A stretch of 64,000 bases of DNA from Psychrobacillus lasiicapitis (GTDB lineage Bacteria; Bacillota; Bacilli; Bacillales_A; Planococcaceae). Location of the stretch: the NCBI RefSeq assembly GCF_006861795.1, contig NZ_VDGH01000002.1:186001-250000 (forward strand). Direction: 5' to 3'. The notes under the pieces are model-generated. The model was given only the letters and a program-made list of their open reading frames with translations. It did not search any database and was not told where the DNA came from. Position numbers and translations under genes: made by a program. Below, piece by piece: positions 54,551-59,131 of this stretch. The first letter of the stretch is position 1. Each line of letters begins with the position of its first letter.

Positions 54551-55642
54551 ATGAAAAATCTATTCCGCATATTAGTGGCTATTACTATTGTACTGGTAAT
54601 TTTTATATATTTTGATAATCCTGTGCAGGAAAATGAGCTTATAAGAGGTTCTAACAATTCTGGGCAGTTAATACCACAGCAATTACCAGAGGTTACTGAG
54701 CCTGCAAACATTTTTGATAGACCAAAGGAAGGAGTATCATCATTAATAGGTGAGTCTTCCCAAAAGCTAATTGAATTGTTTGGCAAGCCTACGAGAGTTG
54801 AACCGTCGGGTTTTGATTATGATTGGTGGGTGTATAATGATTCCTTTTCTACGTATAGATTGTTTGGCATAACAGATGATCAGATAACCCAGTCATTTGC
54901 AATCGGTAGCGATATAGATGTTACTCCATATAAAATAGGACAGTCGCTAACAGATATTTATCGATTTACGCTTGTACAATCAGAAGTCACTATGTCAATA
55001 GATTCGAATACGTATACTTTTTCCTTAACAGAAGAAGATATTAATACGCGTATTTTAGTACCATTTGATAATTTGTTTGCCATATTGTATATAGATATGG
55101 AAGATCAACAGCTAGAGGCAGTTCGGTTTACAGATGCAAACACGCTGTTAAAACTGAGACCGTACGATATTTTATATAACGGCACGATGATAGATGTGGA
55201 AACCCCAGCTTCTTCTTTGCAAGCCGCTATAGATAGGGCGAATGAGCGACAGGTTGTCGAAATGACGAATGTTATTCGTCACAGGCATGGTTTACAAGTG
55301 CTAGAGTCTGATTATGCTTTGCAACAAATTGCAAGGGAACATAGTGAAGAAATGGCAAAAAATAATATAGTTATTAATGATACATTTGAAATTCCTAAAT
55401 TTAGCGATAAGTTAAAGGAATCATCTATTGAGTTTGCACGGGCAGCGGGGAACACAGCCGCTTTTTACTTTGATGCAGGTGAAGCCGTTAATGGTTGGTT
55501 AAATTCGAGAGATCATCGAGCCTCTATACTAGGCGAATGGTATACACATACTGGAGTAGGAGTATATAGTAATTACTATACACAAAATTTAATCGAACAA
55601 CATAAAGTAAAAACACGAAAAAATAGTATAAATATTGATTAA
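54551..55642 (+). CDS. ylbC: CAP-domain protein YlbC
   Basis: A 363-residue protein with one N-terminal hydrophobic anchor (about residues 5-22), a CAP-associated beta-rich domain (about 60-215) and a C-terminal CAP/SCP domain: NVIRHRHGLQVLESDYALQQIAREHSEEM (motifs NVIRHRHGL and AREHSEEM), and GWLNSRDHRASILGEWYTHTGVGV. The CAP histidine/glutamate set is largely kept. It is probably exposed at the outer face; its role is unknown. AAGGAG precedes ATG 54551. Same place as in B. subtilis. Confidence 0.88.
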   Translation: MKNLFRILVAITIVLVIFIYFDNPVQENELIRGSNNSGQLIPQQLPEVTEPANIFDRPKEGVSSLIGESSQKLIELFGKPTRVEPSGFDYDWWVYNDSFSTYRLFGITDDQITQSFAIGSDIDVTPYKIGQSLTDIYRFTLVQSEVTMSIDSNTYTFSLTEEDINTRILVPFDNLFAILYIDMEDQQLEAVRFTDANTLLKLRPYDILYNGTMIDVETPASSLQAAIDRANERQVVEMTNVIRHRHGLQVLESDYALQQIAREHSEEMAKNNIVINDTFEIPKFSDKLKESSIEFARAAGNTAAFYFDAGEAVNGWLNSRDHRASILGEWYTHTGVGVYSNYYTQNLIEQHKVKTRKNSINID

Positions 55643-55843: not shown

Positions 55844-56593
55844 CTAATTAAAAACGAAAGTACCTTCTTTATCTTCATATAGTGAGCGAATATGCAAAGG
55901 AACATTATGAAGGGCAGCGAATTTAGCTGCTCTTTTTTGTATGACTTCTACTGGACCATTGATTTTATGTTGTAATTCTTCATAAGTCATGGAAGAAATC
56001 AATTGAACGTTTTTCTCTCTAAAAGGATCAGAAGTCATAACACCAGGGACATTTTTATAGAACTCCACGACATCTGCATTCAAATAATGTCCATAAACGA
56101 CTGCCGTTAGATCACTGCCACCTCTTCCAAGCGTAGTGAATGTTTGCGTTTCTTCTGAGAGACCTTGAAAACCTGGTACCACTATACAATTGACTTGTTG
56201 GAAGGCCGCTGTAATGGATGTAGTTTCTACTTTTTCTATTTGAGCATCTCCATAAGCATTGTTTGTCATAATTCCCGCGCTTTTCCCGTATAAAAGAGTT
56301 GCTAAAATCCCTGCTTCTTTTAACTCCGAACAAAGTACTGAGGCAGATATTAGTTCACCACATGCCGAAAGTAAATCAGTTTCAACACTGTTCGCGGAAC
56401 TGGAGCTAGGTATTAAATCTAATAATGTATCTGTTGCATAGTGCTGTCCTCTTCTTCCCATTGCAGAAACAACTACCAAAACCTTTTGATGGATACTAAT
56501 TGCTTTTTTAATCCTTGCTAATACCAATTTCCTGTTCTGATGATCTTGCATTGCAATTCCACCGAATTTTTGCACAATCATATTTTCAACCAC
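55844..56593 (-). CDS. Aspartokinase-like single-domain amino-acid kinase
   Basis: A 249-residue protein with only the amino-acid-kinase domain of aspartokinases; the C-terminal ACT domains are missing. Kept motifs: QKFGG near the start, VVVSAMGR, the LSACGELISA helix, TLGRGGSDLTA, and the nucleotide-side loop NVPGVMTSDP. The KFGGTS loop is altered to KFGGIA. Without ACT domains no feedback control by lysine or threonine is expected, and the substrate may not be aspartate. Start GTG 56593 or ATG 56581. It is divergent from the MurE-like gene across about 100 bases. Not present at this place in B. subtilis. Confidence 0.75.
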   Translation of the reverse strand: MVENMIVQKFGGIAMQDHQNRKLVLARIKKAISIHQKVLVVVSAMGRRGQHYATDTLLDLIPSSSSANSVETDLLSACGELISASVLCSELKEAGILATLLYGKSAGIMTNNAYGDAQIEKVETTSITAAFQQVNCIVVPGFQGLSEETQTFTTLGRGGSDLTAVVYGHYLNADVVEFYKNVPGVMTSDPFREKNVQLISSMTYEELQHKINGPVEVIQKRAAKFAALHNVPLHIRSLYEDKEGTFVFN

Positions 56594-56689
56594 TCATCTC
56601 GTGACATTTCAAACACTCCGTTCATACGATACAAGGAATTCACTTTACTTTATGCGAACTCACAAGAATGGTGTAGGGAGTGTGTTACT

Positions 56690-58150
56690 ATTTTTCCTTT
56701 AAAAGAACTATTAAGTTGTTTGGAATACAAAGTTACAGGTGATTTGAAGGACTTTATGATAAACAGGTTTATCGATCACTCAAAGCAAATTGAAGAAGGG
56801 GATATATTCGTTTCGGAAACAGGAAATCGAGTATTTATAGAAGAGGCGATTCAAAATGGTGCGAAAGCGATACTCACCGAATATTTTATCCATGACTGTA
56901 GCGTGCCTCAAGTTATTTTACCGACCGATATGCATTTGTTTAAGGAAAGAATTTCCCTTATGACACATAAATTGTATGGAAGAAATATAAAAACTATTGG
57001 TATAACTGGTACCAATGGAAAAACAACCGTTGCGTCCTTTATAGGACAATTATTGATGCAACAACAAAAATCAGTATGTATTATTGGCACATTAGGCGTT
57101 TTTGTAAATGGTCAAAAATTAAATCGGCCATTTAGAAGTAATACAACATTGCCATTTTATGATTTTTTACAAGTAGTAAAATATTGTTTTGAACATAAAG
57201 TGGAATATATTGTATTAGAAGCTTCTTCTCAAGGATTGTTGGACAATCGATTAGGTATATATCCAATCGATGTAGGTGTTTTTTTGAATATAGGAAAGGA
57301 TCACCTAGAGTTTCACGGTGGAATGGTACCATATAAAAAATCAAAAGAGTTACTTGCCACACTTTCCAAACAAATTGTCATCAATGATGATGATGAGTGG
57401 TGTAGATCCATCGCAGAAAAGACAGAGCTTCCGGTTATACGTTTTGGTGAACGATATACGAATGACGTCATCTATCAAAAAGCAGATTATTCATCAGAAA
57501 TTGTCCATTACAAATATATTGTGAGAGATAAAGAAGTACAATTAAAGATGAAAAACAGTGGCTATTATAATGGGATGAACATAGCAGCAGCTTTAGCAAG
57601 TTTATCGGGATTAAATATTCCTCTGGAAGACATAAAAGTACTAACATTACCAAAAGGAAGGTTAGAGCAAATCCCTAATGAAAATGGTCTAGAGGTTCTT
57701 ATAGACTATGCTCATACTCCTGATGCATTGGAGGCTTGTTTATCTACGATTTCATCCTATGCTAAAAAGGATATCTATGTGGTGTTTGGCTGTGGAGGAA
57801 ATCGGGATAAGCAAAAGAGAAAAGGTATGGGAGAAGTTGCGACAAAATATGCGACAAAAATAATTATTACTTCCGACAATCCAAGAGATGAACGACCAGA
57901 AGACATTATTGCTGAAATTGTAAGTGGAGTGAGCCTTAGTAAAGTGATGATCGAACCTGATCGGGAAAAAGCGATTATTTTGGCGTTAAGCACTGCTCAA
58001 AAAGGTGACGTCATTTTAATAGCAGGAAAGGGACATGAGCAAGAACAAATTACGAATGGTCTTGTCGTCCCTTTTTCTGACCATCATGTTGTAAGAAATT
58101 ATTTAGACGAGTCGGGTGGACTAATAACAAAAAATGATCCAGTAGCGTGA
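56690..58150 (+). CDS. MurE-like Mur ligase (probable ATT start)
   Basis: A Mur ligase of about 487 residues: N-terminal UDP-MurNAc-binding-like domain, ATP domain with GITGTNGKTT, and C-terminal domain. Kept: SSQGL in the middle, YKKSKELL with the carbamylated-Lys position, DYAHTPDALE, and TSDNPRDE, whose DNPR is the meso-diaminopimelate specificity motif of MurE. No ATG, GTG or TTG lies between the divergent gene and the domain start with a proper site, but ATT 56690 (then FPLKELLSCL) lies nine bases after AGGGAG and gives a normal MurE N-terminus; an upstream ATG 56540 would overlap the kinase gene. It is not in a dcw cluster, so likely a second MurE-type enzyme (inference). Confidence 0.78.
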   Translation: MFPLKELLSCLEYKVTGDLKDFMINRFIDHSKQIEEGDIFVSETGNRVFIEEAIQNGAKAILTEYFIHDCSVPQVILPTDMHLFKERISLMTHKLYGRNIKTIGITGTNGKTTVASFIGQLLMQQQKSVCIIGTLGVFVNGQKLNRPFRSNTTLPFYDFLQVVKYCFEHKVEYIVLEASSQGLLDNRLGIYPIDVGVFLNIGKDHLEFHGGMVPYKKSKELLATLSKQIVINDDDEWCRSIAEKTELPVIRFGERYTNDVIYQKADYSSEIVHYKYIVRDKEVQLKMKNSGYYNGMNIAAALASLSGLNIPLEDIKVLTLPKGRLEQIPNENGLEVLIDYAHTPDALEACLSTISSYAKKDIYVVFGCGGNRDKQKRKGMGEVATKYATKIIITSDNPRDERPEDIIAEIVSGVSLSKVMIEPDREKAIILALSTAQKGDVILIAGKGHEQEQITNGLVVPFSDHHVVRNYLDESGGLITKNDPVA

Positions 58151-58596
58151 GCAATTCTGTTACCATCTGGTTGAGTGACTGTGCATTCTAACACTAATGT
58201 TTGTCGACCTTTATGTAGGTAGGATGCTGTAGCAATCAACGATTCTTGTGTAGCTGCTTTCACATAATGGATGTTCATATTTGTTGTTACAGCCCCTTTT
58301 CCTTCTGGTCGTAAATCTTTGTTTACAAGGTATCCCATCGCATTATCCATGACCGTTGCGATAATTCCACCGTGTGGTTTATCAAATGTATTAAAGGAAA
58401 GAGGCGTAATAGGAAAAGTGACGATGCATGTATCCTGTTCGAATTGAATATCCATTTGTAAAACCGCATTTAAATAGGTTGCAGAAGTATCTTGTTGTTT
58501 CGTTTGGATAGCTATAAGAAAGTCTTTTAGAAGGGCTACATCAGCTTCTGATGCGTTTTCTGTTACTTGGTGCAGTAATGATTGTAATTCGTTCAT
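58099..58596 (-). CDS. PaaI/YdiI-type hot-dog thioesterase
   Basis: A 165-residue protein: N-terminal helical part (about 1-35), then a 4HBT hot-dog domain with FNTFDKPHGGIIATVMDNAMGY, where the HGG and the downstream Asp are the active-site elements of PaaI-like acyl-CoA thioesterases. ATG 58596 is chosen for the AGGAG site eight bases upstream. Its 3' end overlaps the convergent MurE-like gene by 52 bases. Substrate unknown. Confidence 0.85.
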   Translation of the reverse strand: MNELQSLLHQVTENASEADVALLKDFLIAIQTKQQDTSATYLNAVLQMDIQFEQDTCIVTFPITPLSFNTFDKPHGGIIATVMDNAMGYLVNKDLRPEGKGAVTTNMNIHYVKAATQESLIATASYLHKGRQTLVLECTVTQPDGNRIAHATGSFFVISPPDSSK

Positions 58597-58681
58597 TGTT
58601 TTTTCTCCTAACAGTAAGTAAATAATTTGGCAATTGCTTCTCCATTTCTGGTATGATATACACAGATTGGAGGTTTTATAA

Positions 58682-59131
58682 TTGATAATGACCAATGAAT
58701 GGGCCACTATAATGGACCAATCAGATATGCTATGTACAATGGTTCTTTCCTCTGAACAATTTTATCATTATTTAAATGCACATCGTGCTGTATATACAAA
58801 TTCGAATCTAGTAAGTGAAATTAATCATTTTACGAAACTTAAAGACCAGTATGAAGAGGTTCAACGATTCGGAAAATATCATCCTGATTATTCGAAAGTT
58901 ATGAAGGATATCCGCGTAACTAAACGAAAATTAGATTTGATAGATGAAATTGCAACATTAAGAGTTGCAGAAAATGAATTGCAAGATTTGCTCGATGAAG
59001 TGAGCTTGCTAATAGGTAAATCAGTTTCAGAAGGTGTTAAAGTTCCAGTGAGCAATCCGTTTTTTGCATCCAGTGGCTCTAGTTGTGGGAGCGGCTGTGG
59101 TACTGGCGGAGCTTGCTCTTGTTCTGCATAA
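58682..59131 (+). CDS. ylbF: Y-complex protein YlbF (RicF)
   Basis: A 149-residue helical YlbF-family protein. In B. subtilis it forms the RicAFT (YaaT-YlbF-YmcA) complex that redirects RNase Y and affects sporulation and biofilm genes. The C-terminus is cysteine-rich (CGSGCGTGGACSC: four Cys in 13 residues), matching the reported [4Fe-4S] binding by the complex. Start TTG 58682, eight bases after GGAGG, or ATG 58688. Confidence 0.9.
   Translation: MIMTNEWATIMDQSDMLCTMVLSSEQFYHYLNAHRAVYTNSNLVSEINHFTKLKDQYEEVQRFGKYHPDYSKVMKDIRVTKRKLDLIDEIATLRVAENELQDLLDEVSLLIGKSVSEGVKVPVSNPFFASSGSSCGSGCGTGGACSCSA

Follow-up and report, generated by a model that had tools for sequence, protein, structure and literature searches.

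A candidate spore-specific diaminopimelate ligase and a divergent ACT-less aspartokinase at the ylb locus of Planococcaceae

Sequence comparison points to a MurE dedicated to sporulation in bacteria of the family Planococcaceae. The gene, called murE-A here, probably encodes a sporulation-specific meso-diaminopimelate (meso-DAP) ligase for the spore cortex of lysine-wall bacteria, fed by a feedback-free aspartokinase, and we put the probability of this reading at about 0.85. The reading is based on the protein family, the DAP versus lysine motif, the co-occurrence with spore genes, gene remnants, a promoter element and the absence of dapG from the spore operon; we infer the substrate, the mother-cell timing, the lack of feedback and the kinase activity. 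MurE-A is present with sporulation and lost with it, being found in 114 of 114 genomes with the sporulation protein SpoVFB and in 0 of 37 others, with remnants in three genomes of a sister genus.

The window is a stretch of 64,000 nucleotides from the genome of Psychrobacillus lasiicapitis (G000). Its genus is labeled g1 (17 genomes) and the sister genus g2 (4 genomes). MurE types are labeled A (murE-A), B (the DDPR lysine type), C (the C22 type) and D (the DDLN type).

The locus and the start of murE-A

The features of the locus, by position in the window, are as follows.

54551..55642, forward strand: ylbC-like CAP protein, upstream border of the pair (domain search and locus reading)
55844..56581, reverse strand: ACT-less aspartokinase with a DapG-type catalytic domain; probable start ATG 56581 (the listed open reading frame starts at GTG 56593)
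56604..56631, forward strand: sigma-K-like promoter AC-N17-CATACGATA for murE-A (sequence)
56646..56654, reverse strand: CATAAAGTA, a -10-like element for the kinase, the weaker case (sequence comparison)
56675..56680, forward strand: AGGGAG, probable Shine-Dalgarno sequence of murE-A, 9 nt 5' of the ATT (alignment of the genus)
56690..58150, forward strand: murE-A, a DAP-type UDP-MurNAc-tripeptide synthetase of 486 amino acids with an ATT start (family models and conserved start)
57875..57886, forward strand: DNPR codons in murE-A, the diaminopimelate-type motif (sequence)
58099..58707, reverse strand: hotdog thioesterase, between ylbC and ylbF (domain search and locus reading)
58682..59131, forward strand: ylbF, downstream border of the pair (domain search and locus reading)

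The preliminary description placed two divergent genes between ylbC and ylbF, and they are found there, together with the thioesterase gene. The same place is taken by the thioesterase gene in all four g2 genomes and in four of the six non-spore genera that were read. The kinase and murE-A share about 100 nt of conserved sequence as a divergent promoter region, and the DNA between them is strikingly conserved across the 17 genomes of the window's genus.

The ligase had been described as MurE-type with a DNPR motif, and it is a full MurE. It scores 390 bits against TIGR01085 (cut-off 257), is also over the cut-off of NF001126, the NCBIfam model of the DAP ligase, and carries a GTNGKT ATP site, DNPR and GKGHE. 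The predicted fold is that of MurE (AF2 pLDDT 84), and the best Foldseek matches are MurE structures, with a TM-score of 0.84 for the first. MurE-A shares the full three-domain architecture, DNPR and GKGHE with meso-DAP MurE proteins (E. coli 1e8c, M. tuberculosis 2wtz and the DNPR MurE of other Bacilli), but differs from them in tracking sporulation, in its place at the ylb locus, in forming its own clade and in an often non-ATG start. Its nearest PDB entries are 8f5d (210 bits), T. maritima 4bub (205 bits) and DAP ligases. The L-lysine MurE proteins of S. aureus (4c12) and T. maritima (4bub) belong to the same family, but murE-A has DNPR rather than DDPR and reaches only 176 bits with 4c12. 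Asparagine or aspartate at the second place of this motif goes with DAP or lysine, respectively. All 37 type A sequences aligned have DN(P/A/S)R, 34 of them as DNPR.

ATT start codons are very rare in bacteria. The ATT at 56690 is the sole murE-A start that all 17 genomes of the genus share, and it is preceded throughout by AGGGAG (AGGAAG in one genome). An in-frame TGA lies three codons 5' of the ATT in three genomes, a one-base insertion disrupts the longer frame in another, and in some the first ATG, GTG or TTG of the frame is far inside the gene. With ATT 56690 as the true start, the kinase and murE-A do not overlap as proteins. An ATG at 56540 was also considered as the start and was ruled out by the 17-genome comparison within the genus. 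Nine of the 14 murE-A starts picked are non-ATG, namely ATT here and TTG or GTG in eight more; starts outside the window's genus were picked by eye, and the ATT of the genus is the one that is well supported. Speculatively, weak starts may limit leakage of murE-A expression.

Co-occurrence with sporulation and the promoter region

MurE-A, the kinase, SpoIVA and SpoVFB were searched for in the same 151 genomes of the family, representing 19 genera. MurE-A occurs in 114 genomes, 110 by search (E<=6e-75) and four (G020, G121, G153 and G061) by locus reading, as the search scored at most nine candidates per genome; the 110 calls rest on E-value, and the motif was counted in 37 sequences. SpoVFB is over its cut-off in the same 114 genomes, of which 14 unlisted ones were placed by subtraction, and intact murE-A was not found in the other 37 of the 151. 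The association is strong whether counted by genome (Fisher 4e-36, kinship ignored) or by genus (Fisher 5e-5, 12 versus 6, excluding the mixed genus g2). SpoIVA passes its cut-off in 113 of these genomes, and in the 114th (G133) it is cut by a contig end.

The search found no murE-A in the 34 genomes of the six genera without SpoIVA (g6, 3; g7, 16; g8, 2; g9, 8; g12, 2; g16, 3). The locus was read in six of the 34, one per genus; both murE-A and the kinase are missing there, ylbF is found at all six loci and ylbC at five. The genomes of g2 differ from one another. G061 has SpoIVA over the cut-off, SpoVFB, a ligase (436-amino-acid frame with DNPR) and a divergent kinase-like gene, and both the ligase and the kinase look degenerate despite the SpoIVA match. 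In the other three g2 genomes (G019, G078 and G093) spoIVA is reduced to pieces and SpoVFB is missing. Ligase remnants spanning 330–401 nt lie at the same place in all three, and a kinase remnant is also found in G093. The preliminary description had suggested a link to peptidoglycan variation; the link holds, and since the ligase goes with sporulation the variation would be developmental.

The element AC-N17-CATACGATA upstream of murE-A matches what we take to be the pattern of mother-cell sigma-K promoters, and the ligase locus of every one of the 17 g1 genomes contains AC-N17-CATANNNTA. The putative mother-cell element CATANNNTA occurs within 100 nt 5' of 12 of 14 type A genes (11 genera) versus 0 of 26 type B genes, where shuffled sequence gives 0.64 and 1.06, respectively (Fisher 2e-8, kinship ignored). 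An AC at -35, spaced by 16–18 nt, is present in only 5 of the 14 type A upstream regions. In a set of 19 type A genes, the element lies within 130 nt of the start in 17, with the starts of G133 and G134 wrongly set; the 14-gene set is this set minus G136, G108, G133, G062, G153 and G061, plus G104. As a yardstick, stretches of 700 nt spanning the spoVFA start were read in 12 genomes; 7 contain the AC-spaced element, G000 not among them. The background is 27 of 202 open reading frames with CATANNNTA within 100 nt (shuffled, 10.7), a set that includes type A, kinase and spoVFA genes. For the kinase, the element occurs within 200 nt in 5 of 11 cases, which lends a promoter there weak support.

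Other MurE genes and the wall of the growing cell

A second murE copy in the genome had been thought likely. That part stands, as another MurE-family gene is among the nine Mur-ligase-type genes found by search of G000; it is the type C gene P0003, at 342112-343662 of contig C22. The copy to be looked for in the dcw cluster is missing from G000 and from the one genome read for each of the 19 genera, where MurE queries match only within murD. In the dcw cluster of G000 a spoVD-like gene is followed directly by mraY. In the 19 genomes, one per genus, the gene 5' of mraY is spoVD- or pbpB-like, pbpB being the better match in the six non-spore genera and spoVD in the 13 others.

Most other genera read have a type B gene, identified by its DDPR motif (26 sequences). 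It adjoins prfC at 20 of the 26 loci and a dcw gene at none, and murE adjoins prfC in S. aureus too. The nearest PDB entry to a type B protein of genus g5 (L137) is the S. aureus L-lysine ligase 4c12 (470 bits), followed by the T. maritima lysine ligase (306 bits), which reads DDPR in the alignment with murE-A, and the E. coli DAP ligase (288 and 284 bits). The DDPR paralog of these genomes is of the type of the S. aureus L-lysine MurE. Types A and B alike pass NF001126, so annotation with this standard model would label a lysine-type copy "diaminopimelate ligase" just as it would a DAP-type one. In a quick maximum-likelihood tree of 97 sequences, types A, B and C each fall on one side of a branch (support 97, 95 and 100); the deep order is unresolved and the G061 branch is very long.

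The type B gene is missing from the nine Mur-ligase genes of G000. The C22 protein scores 297 bits against TIGR01085 (cut-off 257), lacks both DNPR and GKGHE, and has GCQGMD instead. Its predicted structure, of modest confidence (pLDDT 73), is MurE/MurF-like with a TM-score of about 0.5. Orthologs with at least 67% identity are found in 17 of 17 g1 and 4 of 4 g2 genomes, and the next matches are at about 33%. The C22 MurE seems to be a stand-in for the lysine type in these two genera, and is a candidate lysine-adding enzyme with a new type of pocket. We infer that it adds lysine during growth in the window's genus.

It would be a different matter if murE-A were the housekeeping MurE of the window's genus, with a DAP-type wall and some other task for the C22 protein. 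The missing type B gene would fit this, as would the facts that murE-A is the only MurE of G000 with canonical DNPR and GKGHE and that it outscores the C22 copy in TIGR01085. However, three of the four g2 species have no intact murE-A yet must make a wall, and the C22 type is present in every g1 and g2 genome. The other sporulating genera read have murE-A plus a DDPR gene elsewhere in the genome, non-spore genera keep the DDPR gene without murE-A, and a putative promoter of the mother-cell type and an ATT start also speak against a housekeeping gene. We therefore regard a housekeeping role as quite improbable.

Three further observations concern the wider Mur ligase family. Another MurE paralog (type D, DDLN or DDRN) is present in some genomes of g1, g2, g5, g7, g10, g12 and g17. 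G051, from another family, has two MurE genes (L196 and L200), one with DDPR and one without the motif. Contig C25 of G000 (300000-308700) encodes three MurF-like Mur ligases (P0004-P0006) in about 8 kb, one of which begins with an ATP-grasp-like part that by eye is of the YheC/D type; this is a possible peptide-making cluster.

The arrangement in which murE-A accompanies a lysine-type MurE is also found in a species of described wall chemistry. At the locus of Sporosarcina highlanderae (L216), ylbC is followed by a 243-amino-acid kinase gene (reverse strand), murE-A (forward strand, DNPR) and ylbF, and a DDPR MurE gene lies beside prfC elsewhere. Its description gives spherical terminal endospores and a peptidoglycan of type A4alpha L-Lys-L-Ala-D-Asp (PMC10628120). 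Lysinibacillus walls are described as containing lysine and aspartate and not DAP (PMC5011910, PMC5794956), and another paper cites a sporulation-related meso-DAP-hydrolyzing peptidase of B. sphaericus 9602 (PMC10653849). Both the Lysinibacillus wall and the peptidase agree with lysine in the wall and DAP in the peptidoglycan of sporulation. Tipper, Linnett and co-workers reportedly described, in the 1970s, a sporulation-specific meso-DAP-adding activity in Bacillus sphaericus 9602. MurE-A matches it in predicted enzyme, organism group and timing; what was described there is an activity, whereas here it is a gene. A search of the open-access literature, which is not proof, found no paper naming a gene for the spore meso-DAP-adding activity, and in that literature the gene, the family-wide tie to sporulation, the relocated truncated DapG partner and the ATT start appear to be new.

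The ACT-less kinase and a spore branch of DAP synthesis

The neighboring gene had been described as an ACT-less aspartokinase-like gene, and its domain content agrees. The 249-amino-acid protein has an AA_kinase domain only (PF00696, 121 bits) and aligns to positions 2-245 of the 405 of the aspartokinase model PRK08210, the ACT half being absent. Short kinases, with frames of 223–283 amino acids (19 read), were found in 58 of the 151 genomes, in seven genera (E<=1e-42). In 58 of 58 the kinase is adjacent to and divergent from murE-A, as judged from search coordinates compared by eye and four loci read, so the two genes do co-occur in relatives. The partnership proposed for them is not obligatory, as a kinase match at E<=1e-42 is lacking in 56 of the 114 genomes with the ligase. 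The kinase is absent at nine type A loci of genera without the short kinase, and ylbC directly precedes murE-A at the six kinase-less loci shown. These genera form one clade of the type A tree (support 100), and it is likely that the kinase was lost once.

The best full-length matches of the kinase outside the family are DapG-like (41–45% identity for six read), and these relatives lie between asd and dapA in 6 of 6 cases read. In Bacillus the operon order is spoVFA-spoVFB-asd-dapG-dapA. The spoVFB-asd loci of the family have the kinase signature in 0 of 12 cases, and asd is directly followed by dapA in 8 of 8 family loci listed. DapG (aspartokinase I) of Bacillus presumably catalyzes the same pathway step as the short kinase, which differs in lacking the ACT domains, in lying beside murE-A at the ylb locus and in a changed KFGG(T/S)S motif.

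One alternative accepts the ligase as a spore enzyme and makes the kinase a mere neighbor, with another acidic substrate or a regulatory role. Besides the ligase genomes without a kinase match, it can draw on substitutions common to the short kinases, which read KFGG-I/V/M-A instead of KFGG-T/S-S and SDL or SDF in place of SDT. Against it are the invariable divergent placement beside murE-A, the lack of dapG in the spore asd loci, the DapG-like nature of the best outside matches and the retention, except in G061, of the SAMG/SAIG, GE, GF and GRGGSD stretches, which we take to carry the aspartate site. An unrelated kinase is on balance unlikely. The preliminary description also considered a dedicated two-enzyme pathway to a modified peptide or small peptide metabolite, in which the kinase would activate the amino acid to be ligated. 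The isolated pairing of two biosynthetic genes might suggest as much, but positions 52-62 kb of the window show no further biosynthetic genes, nothing else was found to point that way, sequence and predicted fold make the ligase a full MurE, and its distribution tracks sporulation. Moreover, Mur ligases use their own ATP, so an activating kinase is unneeded, and the gene fits the first step of DAP synthesis instead. We consider such a pathway extremely improbable.

According to the preferred reading, a spore-specific DAP ligase fed by its own aspartokinase, a lysine-type MurE would build the wall during growth, encoded by the DDPR gene, mostly beside prfC, in most genera and by the C22 gene in the window's genus. 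Late in sporulation, sigma-K would presumably turn on murE-A in the mother cell. MurE-A, as a UDP-MurNAc-L-Ala-D-Glu:meso-diaminopimelate ligase, would add meso-DAP to the cytoplasmic precursor, giving a cortex of DAP peptidoglycan. The divergent kinase would be a relocated DapG without its ACT (feedback) domains, not shut off by lysine or DAP, and may supply aspartyl phosphate so that more flux reaches DAP and dipicolinate while the cortex and core are being formed.

A more ambitious proposal, which we offer tentatively and hold to be somewhat doubtful, is that the locus forms part of an inherited developmental switch in wall chemistry. The feedback-free aspartokinase and the DAP ligase, with their shared divergent promoter region, would constitute a private, spore-only DAP branch, guarded against leakage by a late sigma factor and weak starts (ATT in the window's genus), and growth in that genus would depend on an unusual lysine-adding C22 MurE without the canonical amino-acid pocket.

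Finally, bacteria differ in having lysine or DAP as residue 3 of the peptidoglycan peptide, and a review calls the reason unknown (PMC4015370). Here a single organism apparently employs the two at different life stages, each with a separate gene. MurE-A is offered as the candidate gene for a spore activity said to have been known for fifty years, and because the genes are separate, whether the spore cortex needs DAP becomes testable through a single gene.
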